Below, piece by piece: positions 886-37,277 of a stretch of 37,282 bases of DNA. The translations under genes were made by a program, and so were the position numbers. Where the stretch lies: positions 1-37,282 of IMG/VR virus record IMGVR_UViG_3300036770_006325, one strand, 5' to 3'. Source of the DNA: a virus. Position 1 is the first letter of the stretch, and each line of letters begins with the position of its first letter. The notes beneath the pieces were generated by a model that had not been told where the DNA came from, did no database searches, and was given only the letters and a program-made list of their open reading frames with translations.

Positions 886-1458
886 ATGGGAATTTTTGAT
901 AATGATGATGAATTTAATGACGATTTTATGAATCGTTGGGAAAAATTTAATAATCGTATGATGAACGATGAAGAATTCAAAAGAGAAATGGAAAGAGCAC
1001 AAAAAGATTTTCAAGAACTTATGCGAACACTTCTTTCCCAAAGAAATTATGGAACACCTCTTGATTTTAGAATTATACCATTAAATCAAAAAGATTTTGG
1101 TAATGAATTTAAAATCCCTGACAATGAAATGGATGTTGAAAAAGGTCAAGATGAAAGTGGTGAATGGGAAACTAAGAATTGGACATCACCAGATGGCTCA
1201 ATATCTTTCAGTTCTTTTAGTAGATCATCAAGTATTGGTGATATGTTTGACCTTCCTGATGAAATCGCAGAAAGATGGAAAGAAAGGTATACTAAGAAAA
1301 GAGAAATTAAAGATAACTCGGAAGAACTTAAAAAAATTAAACTAGCAAAACTTAAAACAGCTTTGGATAGAGCAGTAGAACAGGAAAAATATGAAAAGGC
1401 TGCTGAAATTAAAAAAATGATGGATGAACTAAAATCCGAAAAAAAAGAAAAAAATTAA
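886..1458 (+). CDS. UVR-motif protein of unknown function
   Basis: A 190-residue acidic protein beginning MGIFDNDDEF. The frame is open upstream into the tRNA-Met, but ATG 886 is the first start outside the RNA gene and terminator. The C-terminal 35-40 residues form a UVR-type helical hairpin (LKTALDRAVEQEKYEKAAEI), the motif of UvrB, UvrC and McsA, where it mediates protein contacts. No catalytic domain of those proteins is present. The rest is charged and low in hydrophobics. It may be an adaptor for a DNA-repair or Clp-type partner, which is inference. It lies alone between two RNA units. Confidence 0.7.
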   Translation: MGIFDNDDEFNDDFMNRWEKFNNRMMNDEEFKREMERAQKDFQELMRTLLSQRNYGTPLDFRIIPLNQKDFGNEFKIPDNEMDVEKGQDESGEWETKNWTSPDGSISFSSFSRSSSIGDMFDLPDEIAERWKERYTKKREIKDNSEELKKIKLAKLKTALDRAVEQEKYEKAAEIKKMMDELKSEKKEKN

Positions 1459-1487
1459 TTGACAAATAAAAAAACTTTAGTATCTTT
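1458..1487 (+). promoter_or_regulatory. Promoter of tRNA operon 1
   Basis: TTGACA (1458-1463), 16-bp spacer, TATCTTTG (1480-1487): a near-ideal Bacteroidetes promoter. It starts a transcript reading the leader peptide, the attenuator and eight tRNAs. Confidence 0.85.
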
Positions 1488-1521
1488 GTATCATATTTAT
1501 AAACAAACAATAATTACAACA

Positions 1522-1608
1522 ATGAAAAATTGGCATAACATATCGATAAACATTAGTAACCGAATTAATTCGGACTATATGAGGTGTGTTTTGTCTAATC
1601 TGAACTAA
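1522..1608 (+). CDS. Leader peptide of tRNA operon 1 (28 aa)
   Basis: A 28-residue ORF starting about 30 bases after the promoter. Residues 3-17 read NWHNISINISNRINS, using only the six amino acids served by the eight tRNAs downstream. The codons also match the isoacceptors: ATA for Ile-UAU, ATT for Ile-GAU, TCG for Ser-UGA, AGT for Ser-GCU, CGA for Arg-ACG, TGG, CAT, AAT/AAC. Residues 20-23 (codons ATG AGG TGT GTT) are one strand of an antiterminator. This is the layout of the trp and his leader peptides. The product itself is probably irrelevant; its translation would be the sensor. No database family is known to me. Confidence 0.8.
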   Translation: MKNWHNISINISNRINSDYMRCVLSNLN

Positions 1609-1665
1609 AGATAGGATTATAAAAATTAAAGGAACCCACCTCATGAAAATGTAGGTGGGTTTTTT
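1579..1665 (+). promoter_or_regulatory. Transcription attenuator of tRNA operon 1
   Basis: ATGAGGTGTGTT (1579-1590, inside the leader peptide) can pair with AACCCACCTCAT (1633-1644), 11 of 12 positions. The same 3' strand is the left arm of an intrinsic terminator, AACCCACCT/AGGTGGGTT (1633-1661) with a T run. The two structures exclude each other. A ribosome stalled early in the leader would leave 1579-1590 free and allow read-through into the tRNAs; a ribosome reaching the stop at 1608 would favour termination. Confidence 0.8.
1633..1665 (+). terminator. Intrinsic terminator in the leader of tRNA operon 1
   Basis: AACCCACCT (1633-1641) pairs with AGGTGGGTT (1653-1661), with a further CAT/ATG step in the loop, followed by a T run. 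It stands about 28 bases before the first tRNA, so uncontrolled it would silence the array. Confidence 0.9.
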
Positions 1666-1693
1666 GTTATTTGAAATATTGGAAATTAAAAAT

Positions 1694-1776
1694 GGAAGAG
1701 GTCCGAACGCACGAGGACACCGTCTTGAAAACGGCTGGGTGTAAAAACTTTGCAGGTTGGATTCCTGTCTCTTCCG
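1694..1776 (+). tRNA. tRNA-Ser (UGA)
   Basis: Acceptor GGAAGAG/CTCTTCC, anticodon loop CTTGAAA, long variable arm, T arm GCAGG TTGGATT CCTGT, G73 (typical Ser discriminator), followed by CA. First tRNA of operon 1. Confidence 0.92.
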
Positions 1777-1781
1777 CAAAT

Positions 1782-1856
1782 GGTGTCTGTAGACGAATGG
1801 TAAAGTCACTACTCTGTGAAAGTAGAATTTTGTGGGTTCGAGTCCCATCAGACACC
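1782..1856 (+). tRNA. tRNA-His (GUG)
   Basis: Encoded G-1 opposite C73, acceptor GTGTCTG/CAGACAC, anticodon arm CTACT CTGTGAA AGTAG, T arm GTGGG TTCGAGT CCCAT. The extra G-1:C73 pair confirms His identity. Confidence 0.95.
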
Positions 1857-1863
1857 CAAATAA

Positions 1864-1935
1864 GGATTGGTAGCTCAGAGGCAGAGCAATTGACTGTTAA
1901 TCAATAGGTCGAGATTTCGAAATTCTCCCAGTCCT
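1864..1935 (+). tRNA. tRNA-Asn (GUU)
   Basis: Acceptor GGATTGG/CCAGTCC, D arm GCTC/GAGC, anticodon arm ATTGA CTGTTAA TCAAT. The T stem GAGAT/TTCTC has one T-T mismatch next to the loop. Discriminator T, then CA. Confidence 0.9.
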
Positions 1936-1941
1936 CAAAAT

Positions 1942-2014
1942 AGTAACGTGTCTGAACGGTTTAGGAACCATGCTGATACCATGGGAAAAGTGGGTTCGAT
2001 TCCCACCGTTACTA
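1942..2014 (+). tRNA. tRNA-Ile (GAU)
   Basis: Acceptor AGTAACG/CGTTACT, anticodon arm CCATG CTGATAC CATGG, T arm GTGGG TTCGATT CCCAC, A73-CA. Confidence 0.93.
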
Positions 2015-2020
2015 CAAAAT

Positions 2021-2091
2021 GCGTCTTACAGACAAGGTGTCGGCAGAGCCTCCAAAACTCTAGCGGGTGGGTTCGATCCCTACAGGACGTG
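2021..2091 (+). tRNA. tRNA-Trp (CCA)
   Basis: Acceptor GCGTCTT/AGGACGT, anticodon loop CTCCAAA on an AGAG/CTCT stem, T arm GTGGG TTCGATC CCTAC, G73 (expected for Trp), CA. Confidence 0.9.
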
Positions 2092-2096
2092 CAAAA

Positions 2097-2179
2097 GGAA
2101 GTGTACCCAATCGGCAAAGGGGCGAGTTTGCTAAACTTGTAGGTCTTAGGATGAGTGGGGTCGGCACCCACCACTTCCG
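2097..2179 (+). tRNA. tRNA-Ser (GCU)
   Basis: Acceptor GGAAGTG/CACTTCC, anticodon arm CGAGT TTGCTAA ACTTG, long variable arm, G73-CA. It complements Ser-UGA so that both serine codon boxes are covered. Confidence 0.92.
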
Positions 2180-2184
2180 CAAAT

Positions 2185-2257
2185 GGAGATGTAGCTCAGG
2201 GGTGAGAGCAGGATGCTTATATCATCAAGGTCGTGGGTTCGATTCCCTCCATCTCTA
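2185..2257 (+). tRNA. tRNA-Ile (UAU)
   Basis: Acceptor GGAGATG/CATCTCT, D arm GCTC/GAGC, anticodon loop CTTATAT, T arm GTGGG TTCGATT CCCTC, A73-CA. A UAU anticodon reads AUA directly, avoiding the TilS-dependent CAU tRNA most bacteria use. AUA is a likely common codon in this AT-rich genome and occurs twice in the operon's leader peptide. Confidence 0.9.
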
Positions 2258-2262
2258 CAAAT

Positions 2263-2336
2263 GGTTCCATGGTGTAATTGAATAACACGCAACATTACGG
2301 ATGTTGAGACTGAGGGTTTGAATCCTTCTGGGACTA
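2263..2336 (+). tRNA. tRNA-Arg (ACG)
   Basis: Acceptor GGTTCCA/TGGGACT, D stem GTGT/ACAC, anticodon arm CAACA TTACGGA TGTTG, T arm GAGGG TTTGAAT CCTTC, A73-CA. A34 would be edited to inosine by host TadA to read CGU, CGC and CGA. Last tRNA of operon 1. Confidence 0.9.
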
Positions 2337-2340
2337 CAAT

Positions 2341-2364
2341 AACCCACCTTTTGGTGGGTTTTTT
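2341..2364 (+). terminator. Terminator of tRNA operon 1
   Basis: AACCCACC-TTTT-GGTGGGTT followed by a T run, five bases after the CA of tRNA-Arg. The stem is nearly the same sequence as the attenuator stem at 1633-1661. Confidence 0.92.
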
Positions 2365-3168: not shown

Positions 3169-3630
3169 ATGGGAATGTTTGATAATATAATTGTAGACGC
3201 CACCATTCTCCCTGACTTAACCGAGGGAGAAAAATCCCTATTAAATCAAGTTGGTGGTTGGCAAAGCAAAGATTTTGAAAATATTTTAACCGATGTTTAT
3301 ATTGTTAAAGACGAATCTTTAAATTTTAAACATTCTTTTGTTGATAAAATTTTTCCATACAAGTTACAAATCAAAGAATTTGAATGGGAGGAAACACCAA
3401 CTGATGCTAAACCTTTTCCTAATGCAGAAGAAAATAGTTTGGAATACCTTATGGGTTCAATGAGGGAAACAAATGTTAGAATTGTTGATTTAAATTATAA
3501 TGGTATATTTATATTTTACACTAGTGTTCAGGAAAATATAAGTGAAGCGGCCAAATCAACCAAATGGTATGAATTTAAAGGTCAAGCAGAAAACGGGAAA
3601 ATAATTTCAATAACGCGGTTGACGAATTAA
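3169..3630 (+). CDS. Hypothetical protein
   Basis: 153 residues starting MGMFDNIIVD one base after the previous stop. It is rich in acidic and aromatic residues with no membrane segment or known motif. The last codons carry the TTGACG box of the next promoter (3619-3624), as happens at the first gene of the window. Function unknown. Confidence 0.7.
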   Translation: MGMFDNIIVDATILPDLTEGEKSLLNQVGGWQSKDFENILTDVYIVKDESLNFKHSFVDKIFPYKLQIKEFEWEETPTDAKPFPNAEENSLEYLMGSMRETNVRIVDLNYNGIFIFYTSVQENISEAAKSTKWYEFKGQAENGKIISITRLTN

Positions 3631-3648
3631 ATAAAATACATATCTTTG
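3619..3648 (+). promoter_or_regulatory. Promoter of a very short transcript
   Basis: TTGACG (3619-3624), 16-bp spacer, TATCTTTG (3641-3648). It points into a stretch that ends in a terminator within about 50 bases. Confidence 0.65.
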
Positions 3649-3654
3649 TATCGT

Positions 3655-3702
3655 TAAGTTAGAGTTGACAATCTGTTATAAAACCTTCGGTTTCTTTTTC
3701 TT
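3655..3702 (+). ncRNA. Possible 45-nt small RNA
   Basis: Between the promoter at 3619-3648 and the hairpin AAACC-TTC-GGTTT with a T-rich tail (3681-3700) lies room only for a RNA of about 45 bases with no ORF. It could be an abortive leader, an sRNA, or an upstream promoter for tRNA operon 2 with its own attenuator. Confidence 0.35.
3681..3700 (+). terminator. Weak intrinsic terminator
   Basis: AAACC/GGTTT stem with a TTC loop followed by CTTTTTC. The stem is short, so some read-through into the operon 2 leader is likely. Confidence 0.5.
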
Positions 3703-3723
3703 AACAAAAATTTAACACAAGCG

Positions 3724-3754
3724 TTGACAGTTAACAAAAACTTTTATATCTTTG
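3724..3754 (+). promoter_or_regulatory. Promoter of tRNA operon 2
   Basis: TTGACA (3724-3729), 17-bp spacer, TATCTTTG (3747-3754). Same architecture as the promoter of operon 1. Confidence 0.85.
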
Positions 3755-3773: not shown

Positions 3774-3848
3774 GTTGTGGTTCTGAAAATGGGTTTCAGG
3801 AACTACCCCAAAACAAAAGACAGGTATAGTACGGGGTCTGTCTACAAC
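3774..3848 (+). promoter_or_regulatory. Structured 5' leader of tRNA operon 2
   Basis: GTTGT (3774-3778) can close with ACAAC (3844-3848) around two hairpins: CTGAAA/TTTCAG (3783-3799) and GACAG/CTGTC (3819-3842). CCCC (3806-3809) is complementary to GGGG (3833-3836) in the second loop, a possible pseudoknot. GTTGTGG (3774-3780) also matches the antiterminator sequence, so this domain may compete for the terminator arm. Whether it binds a ligand is unknown. Confidence 0.45.
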
Positions 3849-3880
3849 GAAAACCCTTAAAAACATAAACGATTAAACAA

Positions 3881-3982
3881 ATGAAAAAGACTTATACATA
3901 TCAAGTTAACGCACCGAAAGGGAAGGCCGATTATAAAGGCTGTCCTGTGAATGGTTGTGGTATGTACGATTCCGTCTCATAA
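3881..3982 (+). CDS. Leader peptide of tRNA operon 2 (33 aa)
   Basis: A 33-residue ORF starting MKKTYTYQVN. Residues 11-22 read APKGKADYKGCP, all amino acids served by tRNAs of this operon (Tyr, Gly x2, Pro, Asp, Ala, Cys, Lys). Codons match isoacceptors: GGG for Gly-UCC, GGC/GGT for Gly-GCC, CCG/CCT for Pro-UGG, TAT, GAT, TGT, AAA/AAG, GCA. Codons 25-27 (GGT TGT GGT) contain the antiterminator strand. Thr, Gln, Val and Asn codons also appear; Asn is served by operon 1, and the others may correspond to the two undecoded tRNA-like elements here. Probably acts only through its translation. Confidence 0.75.
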   Translation: MKKTYTYQVNAPKGKADYKGCPVNGCGMYDSVS

Positions 3983-4050
3983 AAGTATACGAGATTAAGA
4001 GTTTAAAACCCCACAACCGAGTAGGAAATCCGAAAAAGTTGTGGGGTTTT
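3953..4050 (+). promoter_or_regulatory. Transcription attenuator of tRNA operon 2
   Basis: GGTTGTGG (3953-3960, inside the leader peptide) is exactly complementary to CCACAACC (4011-4018), which is also in the left arm of the terminator at 4007-4048. The upstream GTTGTGG at 3774 could compete as well. The order leader codons, antiterminator strand, terminator, tRNAs is the same as in operon 1, with unrelated sequence. Confidence 0.78.
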
Positions 4051-4069: not shown

Positions 4070-4151
4070 GAGAGTGCGCCAACGCTGGAGGGTTGGGCTT
4101 GTCTGTAAAACAAGTATTTAGGTCTAGTGGGTTCGAATCCCACCACTCTCA
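4070..4151 (+). tRNA. tRNA-Tyr (GUA)
   Basis: Acceptor GAGAGTG/CACTCTC, anticodon arm CTTGT CTGTAAA ACAAG, long variable arm, T arm GTGGG TTCGAAT CCCAC, A73 and encoded CCA (4152-4154). First tRNA of operon 2. Confidence 0.93.
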
Positions 4152-4157
4152 CCAAAC

Positions 4158-4275
4158 GGGTGGATGGCAATGATCAGGCTATTCAGGGTAGCTCCCTAAG
4201 TCGGTCGGCAAGCAAGGTAAGCAGTACACTTACTTCCTTTAATGGATATTGTTCGTTCGAATCGAGCTCCACCCA
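4158..4275 (+). ncRNA. Oversized tRNA-like element, anticodon unclear
   Basis: Acceptor GGGTGGA/TCCACCC pairs perfectly, with T arm GTTCG TTCGAAT CGAGC (4251-4267), A73 and CA. The total is 118 bases. A second D-arm-like sequence (TAGCTC...GGTCGGCAAGC) follows about 25 extra bases after the acceptor. A hairpin GTAAG CAGTACA CTTAC has a 7-base loop but lacks U33. It may be a tRNA with an insert, a decayed Tyr-like copy, or a tRNA mimic. Confidence 0.5.
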
Positions 4276-4297
4276 CAAAAACGTTCATTGAAATAAA

Positions 4298-4403
4298 AGA
4301 ATAGAAGCGGAGAAATGAGTTACATCGGTAAAACATCAATCTGTAAATTTGACTAAGTGGTTCGAATCCACAATAAAAATACTCTTTCATTATTCTCTAT
4401 TCT
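4298..4403 (+). ncRNA. tRNA-like element with displaced acceptor strand
   Basis: AGAATAG (4298-4304) pairs with CTATTCT (4397-4403). Inside are a Tyr-like anticodon arm TCAAT CTGTAAA TTTGA (4336-4352) and T arm AGTGG TTCGAAT CCACA (4356-4372). About 24 AT-rich bases separate the T arm from the 3' acceptor strand, where none are expected. A damaged tRNA or one with an insert in the acceptor arm are both possible. Confidence 0.4.
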
Positions 4404-4408
4404 TTAAT

Positions 4409-4481
4409 GCGAATGTAGCTCAGCTGGTAGAGCGGGACCTTGCCAAGGTTCAGGCCGTGAGTTCGAACCTCATCATTCGCT
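4409..4481 (+). tRNA. tRNA-Gly (GCC)
   Basis: Acceptor GCGAATG/CATTCGC, D arm GCTC/GAGC, anticodon arm GGACC TTGCCAA GGTTC, T arm GTGAG TTCGAAC CTCAT, T73-CA. Confidence 0.95.
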
Positions 4482-4487
4482 CAACAA

Positions 4488-4562
4488 CGAGTAGTGGGCT
4501 AATTGGTAAGCCGCCACATTTGGGATGTGGACATCATGTCGGTTCAAGTCCGGCCTACTCGA
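4488..4562 (+). tRNA. tRNA-Pro (UGG)
   Basis: Acceptor CGAGTAG/CTACTCG, D arm GGCT/AGCC, anticodon arm CCACA TTTGGGA TGTGG, T arm GTCGG TTCAAGT CCGGC, A73. Confidence 0.95.
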
Positions 4563-4570
4563 CTAAAAAT

Positions 4571-4643
4571 GGATACGGCGCATAACGGCTGGTGTACCCG
4601 ACTGTCTATCGGGATTTAGAGGGTTCGACTCCCTTCGTGTCCG
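4571..4643 (+). tRNA. tRNA-Asp (GUC)
   Basis: Acceptor GGATACG/CGTGTCC, anticodon arm CCCGA CTGTCTA TCGGG, T arm GAGGG TTCGACT CCCTT, G73 as expected for Asp, CA. Confidence 0.93.
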
Positions 4644-4703: not shown

Positions 4704-5378
4704 ATGAAAAATTGTGAAAATTGTAATATAGAAATAGATGGTTCTTTTGGTTCTGGAAGATTTTGTTCAAGAAAATGTGCATGTTCTTTCAGTACAAAAG
4801 AAAAAAGAAAAGAAATAAATAAAAAGATTAGTAAAAAATTAACTAAAGAGAGAGTAAAAAAATCCTGTATAGAATGTGGTCTAACATTTGAAAGCTATGT
4901 TTCTAGAAATAGAAAATACTGTTCAAGAAAGTGTTCAGACAAAAATACTGGAGGTTGGAAAAATCATAATAATGTTAATTGGGAAGTTGTTAATAAAAAA
5001 TCTTATAAAGATGGTAAAAATTATGTAGCTGGTGGGACAACAAAATGGATAGATGTTGAAACTTTAAAAGGTGTTATTAGAGTTCAAGGTTCCTATGAAG
5101 TTAGGACTTGTAAAATATTAGATGAATGGCTTAAAAAAGATGAAATTAAAGATTGGTGGTATAGCAGGGATAGATTTAATTATGTTGGTGTTGACGGTAA
5201 AGAACATACTTACATAACCGACTTCAAAGTATTAAAAAATGACGGAACATTTTATTATATAGAAACAAAAGGTTATATAAGAGAAAATGATGAATTAAAA
5301 TGGGAATCTGTTAAAAATTTAGGTCATAAAATTGAAATTTGGTTTTTAACGGATATAAAAGAAAAAGAATGTAGGTGA
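4704..5378 (+). CDS. Zinc-finger PD-(D/E)XK-like homing endonuclease in the tRNA array
   Basis: 224 residues from ATG 4704; the frame is open further upstream but only from a TTG. The N-terminal half has two zinc-finger-like units, CENC...CSRKC and CIEC...CSRKC. The C-terminal half has the order of a PD-(D/E)XK nuclease: an aspartate in ITDFKVL, then DGTFYYIETKG, where E-x-K would be catalytic. Such free-standing nucleases in phage tRNA clusters are usually homing endonucleases cutting tRNA-related sequence. It lies between tRNA-Asp and tRNA-Gly in the same direction, and its last 8 bases including the stop form the 5' acceptor strand of tRNA-Gly(UCC). Confidence 0.75.
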   Translation: MKNCENCNIEIDGSFGSGRFCSRKCACSFSTKEKRKEINKKISKKLTKERVKKSCIECGLTFESYVSRNRKYCSRKCSDKNTGGWKNHNNVNWEVVNKKSYKDGKNYVAGGTTKWIDVETLKGVIRVQGSYEVRTCKILDEWLKKDEIKDWWYSRDRFNYVGVDGKEHTYITDFKVLKNDGTFYYIETKGYIRENDELKWESVKNLGHKIEIWFLTDIKEKECR

Positions 5379-5444
5379 CGCATAAAAGGTGGTGCATCTG
5401 ACTTCCAATCAGAAACAGAGCGGGTTCGATTCCCGTTACCTACT
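5371..5444 (+). tRNA. tRNA-Gly (UCC)
   Basis: Acceptor GTAGGTG/TACCTAC, anticodon arm TCTGA CTTCCAA TCAGA, T arm GCGGG TTCGATT CCCGT, T73-CA. Its first 8 bases overlap the end of the endonuclease gene, so RNA processing here would destroy the endonuclease message. Confidence 0.92.
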
Positions 5445-5450
5445 CAACAT

Positions 5451-5523
5451 GGGGTGTCATGTACCAAGGCTGGCGAGGATGATTTGCAATCAACCTGGGA
5501 GGATTCGATTTCCTCACGCTCCA
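5451..5523 (+). tRNA. tRNA-Ala (UGC)
   Basis: Acceptor GGGGTGT/ACGCTCC contains the G3-U70 pair that identifies alanine tRNA. Anticodon loop TTTGCAA, T arm GAGGA TTCGATT TCCTC, A73-CA. The anticodon stem has one A-A mismatch. Confidence 0.88.
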
Positions 5524-5527
5524 CAAT

Positions 5528-5598
5528 GTTCGGTTGGCCGAGTGGTTAGGCAACAGTCTGCAAAACTGGAAACGCAGGTCCGATTCCTGTACCGAACT
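5528..5598 (+). tRNA. tRNA-Cys (GCA)
   Basis: Acceptor GTTCGGT/ACCGAAC, D arm GCC/GGC, anticodon arm CAGT CTGCAAA ACTG, T arm GCAGG TCCGATT CCTGT, T73 (typically U in tRNA-Cys). Confidence 0.93.
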
Positions 5599-5619
5599 CT
5601 AAAAATAAATTAAATGAAA

Positions 5620-5675: not shown

Positions 5676-5748
5676 GACTTCGTAGCTCAATTGGTGGAGC
5701 TTCTGGCTTTTAACCAGAAGGTTGTGGGTTCGATTCCCACCGGGGTCA
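5676..5748 (+). tRNA. tRNA-Lys (UUU)
   Basis: Acceptor GACTTCG/CGGGGTC, D arm GCTC/GAGC, anticodon arm CTGG CTTTTAA CCAG, T arm GTGGG TTCGATT CCCAC, A73. Last tRNA of operon 2; it abuts the end of the convergent gene with no clear terminator. Confidence 0.95.
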
Positions 5749-5949
5749 CTAGTTTAAAACCTCAACTGATTCAAAAAGATTTTTGTGAAGTTGGTTTAAA
5801 TGAACTTTTTTTGATTCGTATTTTAATTCTAAAGCAAGTTCATTGTGTTCTTTGTCTAGAATAACAACACCTGTTGAAAAAACATCTAAAGGTACACTTA
5901 ATTCGTGACCTACTTTAATTTCTTTACCGTTTTTATCTTTTAACCCCAT
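5749..5949 (-). CDS. Small YopX-like protein
   Basis: 66 residues. The start MGLKDKNGKEIKVGH resembles the DKNGKEIYEGD opening of YopX-domain phage proteins, a small beta-barrel of unknown function. No membrane segment. The stop codon directly abuts the 3' end of tRNA-Lys on the other strand. It follows the metalloprotease-like gene in the same direction with a 14-base gap, so the two are probably co-transcribed. Confidence 0.6.
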   Translation of the reverse strand: MGLKDKNGKEIKVGHELSVPLDVFSTGVVILDKEHNELALELKYESKKVHLNQLHKNLFESVEVLN

Positions 5950-5963
5950 AACAACTATATTTT

Positions 5964-6938
5964 TTATTTTATAAAATGTGTTACATCTTTAATTCTAACA
6001 TCATGTGATGTCATTAAATGGATGTGTAAATCATTAATCAAATGACCAATTTCTCTTTCATTATAAACAGATACATCTAATTTATAAGGGTTATGTATTC
6101 CACCATTACCACCTGAAATTTCATTTATTTTAACACCCCTTCTTTCTAAAAGTTCCACTAAGATAGGTTTTAAATCTTTATTGGCATTAGGTGCGTCAAA
6201 ATTAATTACCGCGTGAATCTCAGGTTTCATATAAGAAGGTTTAAAACCAACCTCTGTTATACGTTCTTCATCACTATAACCTAATTTTCTGTCAAATGTT
6301 TTTGGTAGGTGTTTTTTTGCGTAAGCAATCCAAGCGTTTTTTATTTGTTCAGCCTCATCTGCAGTTAAATGACCGGAATTAACTCTTTCATCCAAGTAAT
6401 TCCACCAGTCATCTAAAATAACTTTTAAAGGTTGTTTTAATGTTTTAGCCTTTCTATAAAGACCTCTAACATAAGCTTCAACTTCATAAGGTTCCATCAA
6501 GTACTCAAAGTAATTAATGTCTTCAGGATAACCACGTCTTGTTGAAAAGAAATTTTTTCTTTCTCTATCGGTAAATTTGTGTTGAGCAACATGCTCAATT
6601 TCATGTCTGATGGTATTTTTAAGTTCTGGGACTAATACGGATAAACTTCTATTTCTAAGTTCCATATCATTAGGTATCTCAACGTGAAAAACTATTCTTT
6701 TATTTTTATAGATTTTTCTAATACCTTTTGGGTTTATATATGTACCAGCATAAACTTGGGGTTCTAAATTATCGTCAGAATAGTGAAGATAAAAACTAAC
6801 ATCAACCTTTGTACGTGAAAATAAAGTAATTTGTGTTTGATACCTTTTAATACCTCTTTTAACTGCACCAATAATTTCTCTTGATAATTCTGTTGTTACT
6901 TGGTCGTATCTACCTTCTGTGATTAAATTTTCCATCAA
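5964..6938 (-). CDS. HExxH metalloprotease-like virion protein candidate
   Basis: 324 residues. HEIEH at 112-116 is a zincin motif, followed by EVEAYVRG (152-159), which could supply the third zinc ligand. The same order (RHEIEH, then a glutamate, then G-[FL]-Y-R-[RK]-A-K) occurs in the last 200 residues of the polyprotein at 27940-31404, so the two are paralogues. The N-terminus reads NLITEGRYD; the polyprotein has LLNEGRYD. Both fit a T4 prohead-protease-type site (L/I-x-E|G). Activity and substrate are unknown. It is divergent from the glycosylase gene. Confidence 0.65.
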   Translation of the reverse strand: MMENLITEGRYDQVTTELSREIIGAVKRGIKRYQTQITLFSRTKVDVSFYLHYSDDNLEPQVYAGTYINPKGIRKIYKNKRIVFHVEIPNDMELRNRSLSVLVPELKNTIRHEIEHVAQHKFTDRERKNFFSTRRGYPEDINYFEYLMEPYEVEAYVRGLYRKAKTLKQPLKVILDDWWNYLDERVNSGHLTADEAEQIKNAWIAYAKKHLPKTFDRKLGYSDEERITEVGFKPSYMKPEIHAVINFDAPNANKDLKPILVELLERRGVKINEISGGNGGIHNPYKLDVSVYNEREIGHLINDLHIHLMTSHDVRIKDVTHFIK

Positions 6939-14808: not shown

Positions 14809-15022
14809 TCTAAGATTATCTCAACATCGGGTCGGTGGACACATAACCCAGGAACAGAAGTCTGTAATAGGTGTGGTTTCTATCTTAAAAGGAACAAGTG
14901 GAGGATTAGTTCTCAGTAAACCGAACCACTATAAAATAAGGGAATTGTGAAGTTTTGGAAAGTTAGCAAACTTTAACCTAAGCATGTAGAAGACGTTTTT
15001 GAGTTGGAACAAGACGAGGGTT

Positions 15023-15250
15023 TAATTCGGACCCATTTAACGGTGACGTTATTTTAAAAATCGGATGAATTGCTGGAACACTAAGTTATATTAAAATATA
15101 ATATGTCAATCAGCAGCCAAGCCTACAGAGTTAGGAAGGTTCAGAGACTATTGGGGTTTGTAGCGATACAAAGTAATACCAACTAGAGCTTCCGACATCT
15201 CAATGAGATGATGATATAGTCCAAACAATAATGAAAATTATTGAGTTTAG
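15023..15250 (+). ncRNA. Group I intron in the tmRNA T loop
   Basis: 228 bases without ORF. The 5' exon end GGGTT (15018-15022) pairs with the guide GGACCC (15029-15034), with the obligatory U-G at the splice site (P1). The adjacent guide bases TTCG (15027-15030) pair with the 3' exon CGAA (P10). The intron ends in G (15250). Core elements R (GTTCAGAGACTA, 15139-15150) and S (GATGATATAGTCC, 15209-15221) are clear, with P7 complementarity. Joining the exons restores TTCGAAT in the T loop. Group I introns at the tmRNA T loop have been reported in bacteria, so the site is known but the phage case is notable. Confidence 0.88.
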
Positions 15251-36752: not shown

Positions 36753-37277
36753 ATGAATAAAAATAAAAATTCCCACAGAATTAACGAGGCTATTAGAAAT
36801 CCTCAAATTAGAATTGTGGGTGACGGAATTGAATCAAAAGTTTGTTCAGTCCAAGAAGCGATGAAAATTGCTGAACCATTAGGTGTTGATGTGGTAGAGA
36901 TAAACCCAAACTCAAACCCACCTGTTTGTAAATTAATTCGTTACGACAAATTTCTTTACGAAGAAAAAAGAAAACAAAAAGAAATTGAAAAGAAAAACCG
37001 TGAACAACGTGTTGATCTTAAAGAAATCGGTTTAGGACCAAACACTGATACACATGATATTGATTTTAAACTAAAACATGCAATAAATTTTTTATCAAAA
37101 GGTGATAAAGTTAAACTTGTAATGAAATTTAGTGGTCGTGAAATGATGTTTAAAGAAAGAGGGGAAAAGTTAGTATTAGAATTTATTCAAAGATTAGAAG
37201 AATATGGTGTCGCAGAATCTTTACCCAAATTTGAAGGTAAAAGAATGTTTGTTACTATAAGATCTAAAGTAAAATAA
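36753..37277 (+). CDS. infC: Translation initiation factor IF-3
   Basis: 174 residues, full length for bacterial IF3. The N-terminal domain has RINEAIRNPQIRIVGDG and VDVVEINPNSNPPVCKLI; the linker is lysine-rich (EEKRKQKEIEKKNREQ); the C-terminal domain includes LKHAINFLSKGDKVKLVMKF and GREM. IF3 binds the 30S subunit, keeps subunits apart and checks the start codon and initiator tRNA. It starts with ATG, not the autoregulatory AUU of many cellular infC genes, so the usual feedback on its own start would be absent. No rpmI/rplT follow within the last few bases. Confidence 0.96.
   Translation: MNKNKNSHRINEAIRNPQIRIVGDGIESKVCSVQEAMKIAEPLGVDVVEINPNSNPPVCKLIRYDKFLYEEKRKQKEIEKKNREQRVDLKEIGLGPNTDTHDIDFKLKHAINFLSKGDKVKLVMKFSGREMMFKERGEKLVLEFIQRLEEYGVAESLPKFEGKRMFVTIRSKVK

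Follow-up and report, generated by a model that had tools for sequence, protein, structure and literature searches.

Leader peptides that spell out their downstream tRNAs are likely attenuators of tRNA operons in Bacteroidota phages

A 37,282-base virus record (IMG/VR record IMGVR_UViG_3300036770_006325, taken at its full length and called the window below) contains two tRNA operons that share one layout, namely a promoter, a short leader open reading frame (ORF), an antiterminator strand, an intrinsic terminator and then the tRNA genes (Table 1). In both operons the leader codons match the tRNAs encoded downstream. Ribosome-mediated attenuation is the established control of trp, his, ilvGMEDA and pheST, and the sequence evidence makes it very likely that each phage leader is also a ribosome-mediated transcription attenuator, here sensing a shortage of the aminoacyl-tRNAs of its own operon, with ribosome stalling and terminator read-through as the steps that would operate the switch.

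From the sequence of leader 1, the match is readily seen. After ATG AAA, codons 3-17 (1528-1572) read AAT TGG CAT AAC ATA TCG ATA AAC ATT AGT AAC CGA ATT AAT TCG, and all 15 can be read by the eight downstream anticodons under simple wobble rules, including the Arg codon CGA; the ORF then continues with GAC TAT ATG AGG TGT GTT TTG TCT AAT CTG AAC TAA. With the codon usage of the window, the probability that a codon is readable by the operon 1 tRNA set is 0.25, and a run of 15 readable codons among 27 is expected by chance at about 1e-8 per ORF. The longest readable run in 400,000 simulated leaders was 10, and the runner-up among the 259 short ORFs of the window reached a run of 6. This full match had been claimed in the original prediction, and it is borne out. 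The promoter, the 28-codon ORF, the antiterminator (1579-1590 with 1633-1644, 11 of 12 bases paired) and the terminator (1633-1665) are also present at the positions given there, and the eight tRNA genes that it listed can be accounted for, six by ARAGORN, Ser-UGA by an Rfam match below the cut-off and Trp-CCA by eye. Pairing of the antiterminator strand (region 2) with the 5′ arm of the terminator (region 3) was equalled in none of 300 leader shuffles, and the folding z-score of the leader is -4.4, with none of 200 shuffles equally stable.

Operon 2 has its own leader (3881-3982), equivalent to leader 1 and absent from the original prediction. Leader 2 covers every one of the eight amino acids that the operon 2 tRNAs specify, 72% of its residues fit, and its Thr codons suit the probable tRNA-Thr(UGU) gene. 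In the two leaders, region 2 ends 13-19 nucleotides (nt) 5′ of the stop codon, and a distance of 20-22 nt separates this codon from the start of the terminator.

The window also encodes the translation initiation factor IF-3 (36753-37277), and this gene was used as the anchor of a wider survey. IF-3 led to 46 viral contigs, on which, together with three named huge phages, tRNA searches were run, and the tRNA array loci were fetched as L053-L124. Leaders were then called from position and RNA pairing only, blind to any codon match, by requiring a terminator no more than 700 nt from a tRNA gene, an upstream segment pairing with the terminator 5′ arm, and an ATG-initiated ORF of 10-60 codons spanning that segment. 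The caller was written after examples in L053-L088 had been seen, while the hold-out loci L089-L124 had been fetched before its first run. It returned 46 leaders, and none in ten shuffled versions of the 234 upstream regions; an intrinsic terminator between leader ORF and tRNA genes was found in the called leaders and in no shuffle.

The codon match was evaluated by permuting leaders among arrays, in a set of 33 leaders from which the window and similar leaders had been excluded. For codons 3-14 before region 2, the match to the own operon was 66.4% versus 24.2% after permutation (z = 11.8, reached in 0 of 50,000 permutations), so that the proposal that leader codons track the tRNA content in related phages passed its check strongly. 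For codons in or after region 2 of the 33 leaders, the match was 22.6% versus 21.9% (z = 0.2), and this chance-level stretch serves as a negative control internal to the ORFs. The z-score was 4.6 for the hold-out loci alone and 3.2 for leaders that resemble none of the training leaders. Resolved by position, the per-codon match was 0.71-0.74 at 4-10 codons before region 2, 0.40 at 2 codons and 0.22-0.24 at 0-1 codons, falling off about where a ribosome would be expected to start covering region 2. These figures are conservative, since most low-scoring calls hold the matching ORF in another frame, such as MKAMILSLCLSLSLSLQKL before Leu/Ser/Cys tRNAs and MKNVTIYIPEYIYGGYEENYLFGGEP before Glu/Tyr/Pro tRNAs. 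Called leaders include MNNNISNMIQQQQQTYV before four Gln tRNAs, MNNILHINLLNSLCLLGIKLIG before five Leu tRNAs, a leader starting MKTVNTNIAIVEIAVIGGAEEGV before Glu, Ala, Ile, Val and Gly tRNAs, one containing TPAPAVAFRRGTGTGTGTCVPAGCG before Arg, Thr, Val, Ala, Gly and Pro tRNAs, one starting MKNLTNIFWHFHFKATRRL before His and Phe tRNAs, and one starting MLQTSKHSKHFSSSSKWF before Trp, His, Phe, Lys and Ser tRNAs.

Leader and array also change together. When members with and without a given tRNA were compared in three homologous leader families, the corresponding amino acid was higher with the tRNA in 49 comparisons, equal in 10 and lower in 9, a tally that is not a p-value because family members are related. 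The clearest joint change is in L085, a relative of six leaders that contain SKHSSSSKSFKFWF and precede Lys, Phe, Trp, Ser and His tRNAs; in its array tRNA-His has been lost and tRNAs for Tyr, Cys, Ile and Val have been gained, and its leader contains FKYIVCSISVKWFYFIKSF. The original prediction had also asked for covariation of the antiterminator with the terminator, and in this family region 2 and both terminator arms indeed vary jointly, with the sets GAGTTTGG/CCAAACTC/GAGTTTGG, AAGGTTCGG/CCGAAC/GTTCGG and TTCGGGGTT/AACCCCGAA/TTTGGGGTT.

The same design is present in cultured phages spanning three genera, including Cellulophaga phages phi38:1 and phi4:1 and Maribacter phage Panino. Three leaders occur in phage phi38:1 of Cellulophaga baltica. 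The first, MKTIMNIATDIRTKGVKLLGRSRVL, precedes Ala, Lys, Ile, Gly, Met, Asp, Thr, Val and Arg tRNAs and covers 9 of 9 amino acids; the second, starting MKTNMTYNNFSWYSNCSFSSYN, stands before Tyr, Ser, Ser, Asn and Phe; and the third, starting MNVTLLHQEPLEQLRLPSRVP, before Pro, Glu, Gln, His, Leu and Arg. The first and third of these were identified by eye and not by the caller, and the opening tRNA gene of the first two arrays was likewise read by eye. Equivalents of different sequence occur in phi4:1 and Panino, where the Pro/Glu/Gln/His/Leu/Arg operon has MKIQRLHLQELEQPIISGG and MKTQRLHQELEQPTNIGRD, the Ala/Lys/Ile/Gly/Asp/Thr/Val operon MRAATGIAIIGRTKDKPLG and the Tyr/Ser/Asn/Trp/Phe operon MKTNYCTYNNSNWSFSYD. 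No such leader was found in Vibrio phage 6E35.1a (25 tRNAs) or crAss001 (about 23 tRNAs), and the design is absent from the 19 tRNA clusters of the Bacteroides ilei, Muriicola jejuensis and Winogradskyella echinorum chromosomes, where one spurious call gave an unfitting peptide. Two side observations concern the cultured flavophages. Those of three genera (L125, L131, L132, L133) divide their tRNAs among operons in the same way, which roughly follows the first letter of the codon, namely CNN plus Glu, ANN/GNN, and TNN plus Asn and Ser-GCU; and the hypothetical gene gp067, annotated on the opposite strand across a phi38:1 leader (L125, 8501-8632), is probably a mis-annotation.

Judged from these sequences, the leader-operon design observed in the window is general, and the attenuation proposed in the original prediction gains support from a match that is confined upstream of the antiterminator, tracks the arrays (49/10/9) and extends to cultured phages. 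The switch would work as follows. RNA polymerase would start at the promoter and a ribosome would follow on the leader ORF. With all cognate charged tRNAs plentiful, the ribosome would quickly reach the last third of the ORF and cover region 2, so that the 3:4 terminator would form and the tRNA genes would stay untranscribed. If any one of these tRNAs were scarce, the ribosome would stall at a matched codon, at least three codons before region 2; such an upstream stall would allow the 2:3 pairing, no terminator would form and the whole array would be transcribed. Each leader would then be a multi-input OR gate in a negative feedback loop on its own tRNAs. When the leaders were folded at the stage at which region 3 has emerged, the model predicted that in the stalled complex region 2 pairs with region 3 over a mean of 0.90-0.92 of its bases. 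Many leaders have a small hairpin directly 5′ of region 2 (mean z of -0.9 to -1.2 there, +0.2 elsewhere), which is a candidate pause site in the folding predictions. When leader 1 is folded at full length, its minimum-energy structure also has region 2 paired with AACATATC within the run of matched codons, possibly a 1:2 protector helix.

Several results weigh against this attenuation mechanism and have to be set beside it. A ribosome placed at the stop codon blocks the 2:3 pairing in only about half of the leaders, so that in the others the block must act while the ribosome crosses region 2. Even without a ribosome, co-transcriptional folding predicts the 2:3 antiterminator in most leaders, unlike in trp, and the modelled default state may thus be ON. 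A trp-like 1:2 protector was considered as a general feature and rejected, as it is not general across leaders. The match at isoacceptor level, beyond the amino acid, is weak (98 of 5000, p about 0.02), and some phi38:1 and phi4:1 leaders have no 8-bp antiterminator under the pairing rule, only shorter pairing. Finally, several tRNA arrays have no recognised leader, with 38 of the 234 array starts called, although many of these starts lie inside operons.

The folding without a ribosome also bears on the rival that we take most seriously into account, in which the leader is a general test of translation: an untranslated or poorly initiated leader would give read-through, efficient translation would give termination, and the codon match would merely tune speed with no specific sensor. 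Since most leaders are predicted to form the 2:3 pairing even when no ribosome is present, failed initiation should indeed switch the operon on. Such a general sensor, however, would need neither codons that track the array nor a match that ends about where the ribosome covers region 2, and we regard this explanation as unlikely. It is far less plausible still that the ORFs are genes for functional small proteins with a composition that suits the tRNAs by accident, with the terminator only separating transcription units. Several small ORFs near tRNAs do fall within or next to annotated hypothetical-protein genes, but the leaders have no common sequence or fold, their composition follows the array, and their C-terminal part is constrained by RNA pairing, with the antiterminator copy lying inside the ORF.

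Chance is hard to maintain as well. Short AT-rich ORFs are rich in Asn, Ile, Ser and Lys and might merely seem matched, and N, I and S, which are among the matched residues of leader 1, are frequent in AT-rich genes; yet leaders rich in Gln, Leu, His/Phe, Cys/Phe or Gly/Thr/Pro/Ala precede exactly those tRNAs, permuting the leaders among arrays abolishes the match, and towards their 3′ end these ORFs match no better than chance. In view of the leader 1 run, the hold-out loci and the permutations, we count an origin by composition as refuted and its probability as negligible. The same very low probability is given to a T-box-like riboswitch, in which uncharged tRNA would bind the leader RNA directly and the codons would be specifier sequences. 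That system is likewise a tRNA-driven terminator/antiterminator switch, but the window has no T-box or other cis-regulatory Rfam family at the gathering threshold and none convincing below it, and the matches share a single reading frame with a start and a stop codon. Ribosome-mediated attenuation is the reading that we retain.

Compared with the amino-acid operon attenuators (trp/his/leu/thr/phe, ilvGMEDA), the phage leaders have in common a short ORF loaded with regulatory codons, a terminator 20-35 nt 3′ of the leader stop and a choice between antiterminator and intrinsic terminator that would depend on stalling. They differ in that their targets are tRNA genes rather than biosynthesis, transport or synthetase genes, that each leader covers up to about ten amino acids instead of one to three, that region 2 is inside the ORF with no general 1:2 protector, and that they occur in Bacteroidota phages, with several operons per genome. 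The protector, through which termination occurs even when the leader is untranslated, is a feature of trp itself, and we treat the phage leaders as a variant that functions in the manner of an attenuator despite the missing general protector. The E. coli pheST attenuator also acts on a gene of the translation machinery rather than of biosynthesis, although it responds to a single amino acid and its target is a synthetase, not tRNAs. T-box riboswitches exert the same control by tRNA status through a terminator/antiterminator switch, but by direct tRNA binding and with no translated leader. None of the Rfam Trp, His, Leu, Thr and Phe leader families matched the window by covariance model, in gathering or in E-value mode.

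The switch itself is thus of a known kind, and the new part is its target, the tRNA genes. According to van den Berg et al., Yang et al. proposed in 2021 that phage tRNAs take the place of host tRNAs that have been depleted. The later work argues that phage tRNAs counter tRNA depletion by such replacement (van den Berg et al. 2023, PMC10264068); its main text has no mention of attenuation, leader peptide or promoter, and the present system would add a sensor to that proposal. The parts of Al-Shayeb et al. (2020, PMC7162821) drawn on here describe huge-phage tRNA arrays of up to 67 tRNAs, include the same phages as here (LR756501, LR756504, LR756500), and contain no mention of leader or attenuator control of tRNA arrays. 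In open-access full texts, a scope that leaves subscription journals and preprints aside, no earlier description was found of tRNA genes under a leader spelling their own amino acids, in agreement with the original prediction, which knew of none for a viral tRNA array. What we describe looks like an undescribed supply-on-demand control of phage tRNA clusters.

The host of the window virus is very probably a member of the Bacteroidota, because the bacterial best matches of its IF-3 are nearly all from this phylum and both operon promoters are of the Bacteroidota type (TTGAC...TAnnTTTG). The closest relatives of this IF-3 are from huge phages, including LR756501 (735 kb) and LR756504 (636 kb), and Bacteroidetes hosts were predicted by Al-Shayeb et al. 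(2020, PMC7162821) for the five genomes larger than 634 kb. Searches with the leader peptides as query gave no matches, the protein at 2401-2895 had no relatives in a viral-contig search, and that at 5967-6938 had none in a search of phage records.

Some further elements were seen around operon 2. The 5′ part of leader transcript 2 (3774-3850) can fold into a three-way junction, possibly with pseudoknots (ACCCC/GGGGT, AGACAG/CTGTCT), and the antiterminator core, GTTGTGG, is repeated in it; it has no Rfam match and is possibly an extra regulatory element. At 3619-3705, a promoter (TTGACG...TATCTTTG) is followed within about 60 nt by the terminator-like AAACCTTCGGTTTCTTTTTC, possibly a small RNA before operon 2. 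A tRNA-like sequence of about 120 nt (4156-4277), uncalled by ARAGORN and Rfam, has good acceptor and T arms and no clear anticodon arm, and is perhaps Leu-CAG. Elsewhere in the window, a group I intron lies at 14996-15243 (Rfam RF00028, 102 bits), near homing-endonuclease-like ORFs. Amber-suppressor tRNA(CUA) genes are present in several of the IF-3-bearing huge phages (L063, L067, L073, L086, L090 and others), and no leaders with TAG codons for them were found in these phages.

Table 1. Features of the two tRNA operons, in window coordinates
Feature	Position	Strand	Sequence, basis or remark
Promoter 1	1459..1488	+	TTGACA 1459-1464, 16 nt, TATCTTTG 1481-1488; Bacteroidota-type -33/-7; sequence and consensus scan
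Leader peptide 1 ORF	1522..1608	+	MKNWHNISINISNRINSDYMRCVLSNLN; 28 codons, ATG at 1522, stop 1606-1608
Hairpin CCGAATTAATTCGG	1560..1573	+	directly 5′ of antiterminator; possible pause hairpin; sequence
Antiterminator strand (region 2) ATGAGGTGTGTT	1579..1590	+	pairs with AACCCACCTCAT 1633-1644, 11/12
Intrinsic terminator 1 (regions 3 and 4)	1633..1665	+	
tRNA-Ser(UGA)	~1694..1777	+	by eye; Rfam tRNA-clan match 1694-1775 below cut-off; missed by ARAGORN
tRNA-His(GUG)	1783..1857	+	ARAGORN, Rfam
tRNA-Asn(GUU)	1864..1936	+	ARAGORN, Rfam
tRNA-Ile(GAU)	1942..2015	+	ARAGORN, Rfam
tRNA-Trp(CCA)	~2021..2091	+	by eye only; uncalled by ARAGORN and Rfam
tRNA-Ser(GCU)	2097..2180	+	ARAGORN
tRNA-Ile(UAU)	2185..2258	+	ARAGORN, Rfam
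tRNA-Arg(ACG)	2263..2337	+	ARAGORN, Rfam
Terminator closing operon 1	2341..2364	+	
Promoter 2	3724..3754	+	TTGACA 3724-3729, TATCTTTG 3747-3754
Leader peptide 2 ORF	3881..3982	+	MKKTYTYQVNAPKGKADYKGCPVNGCGMYDSVS
Antiterminator strand of leader 2, TGGTTGTGG	3952..3960	+	equalled by 1/300 shuffles
Intrinsic terminator 2	4005..4050	+	
tRNA-Tyr(GUA), first operon 2 gene	4070..4154	+	ARAGORN
Probable tRNA-Thr(UGU), unusual 3′ part	4299..4403	+	Rfam 27.0 bits at 4318-4371, below cut-off 29
tRNA-Gly(GCC)	4409..4482	+	ARAGORN, Rfam
tRNA-Pro(UGG)	4488..4563	+	ARAGORN, Rfam
tRNA-Asp(GUC)	4571..4643	+	Rfam; anticodon by eye
tRNA-Gly(UCC)	5371..5445	+	ARAGORN, Rfam
tRNA-Ala(UGC)	5451..5523	+	by eye
tRNA-Cys(GCA)	5528..5599	+	ARAGORN, Rfam
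tRNA-Lys(UUU)	5676..5749	+	ARAGORN, Rfam

As to its purpose, the loop would suit a loss of tRNA, by cleavage through a defence nuclease or by host shut-down, or a codon mismatch; amino-acid starvation is an unlikely purpose, because extra tRNA would not cure it. Why and when phages use their tRNAs has competing answers, codon compensation and anticodon nuclease resistance, and a built-in sensor shows which tRNAs the phage expects to run short, the leader being a genetically encoded readout of the triggering shortage. A single leader could keep watch on as many as about ten tRNA species, leaders are ready parts for tRNA-shortage reporters, and, as a leader predicts its array, it offers a route to missed or unusual tRNA genes; the control is testable in cultured phages.

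Taken together, attenuation would be extended from amino-acid synthesis to tRNA supply. On balance we favour the broader picture that Bacteroidota phages distribute their tRNA genes over several operons that each sense their own products in a closed loop with multiple inputs, giving a demand-driven supply for dozens of tRNA genes when host tRNAs are cleaved, shut down or codon-mismatched. Such a system would counteract defences that deplete tRNAs and would represent a previously undescribed class of tRNA gene control.

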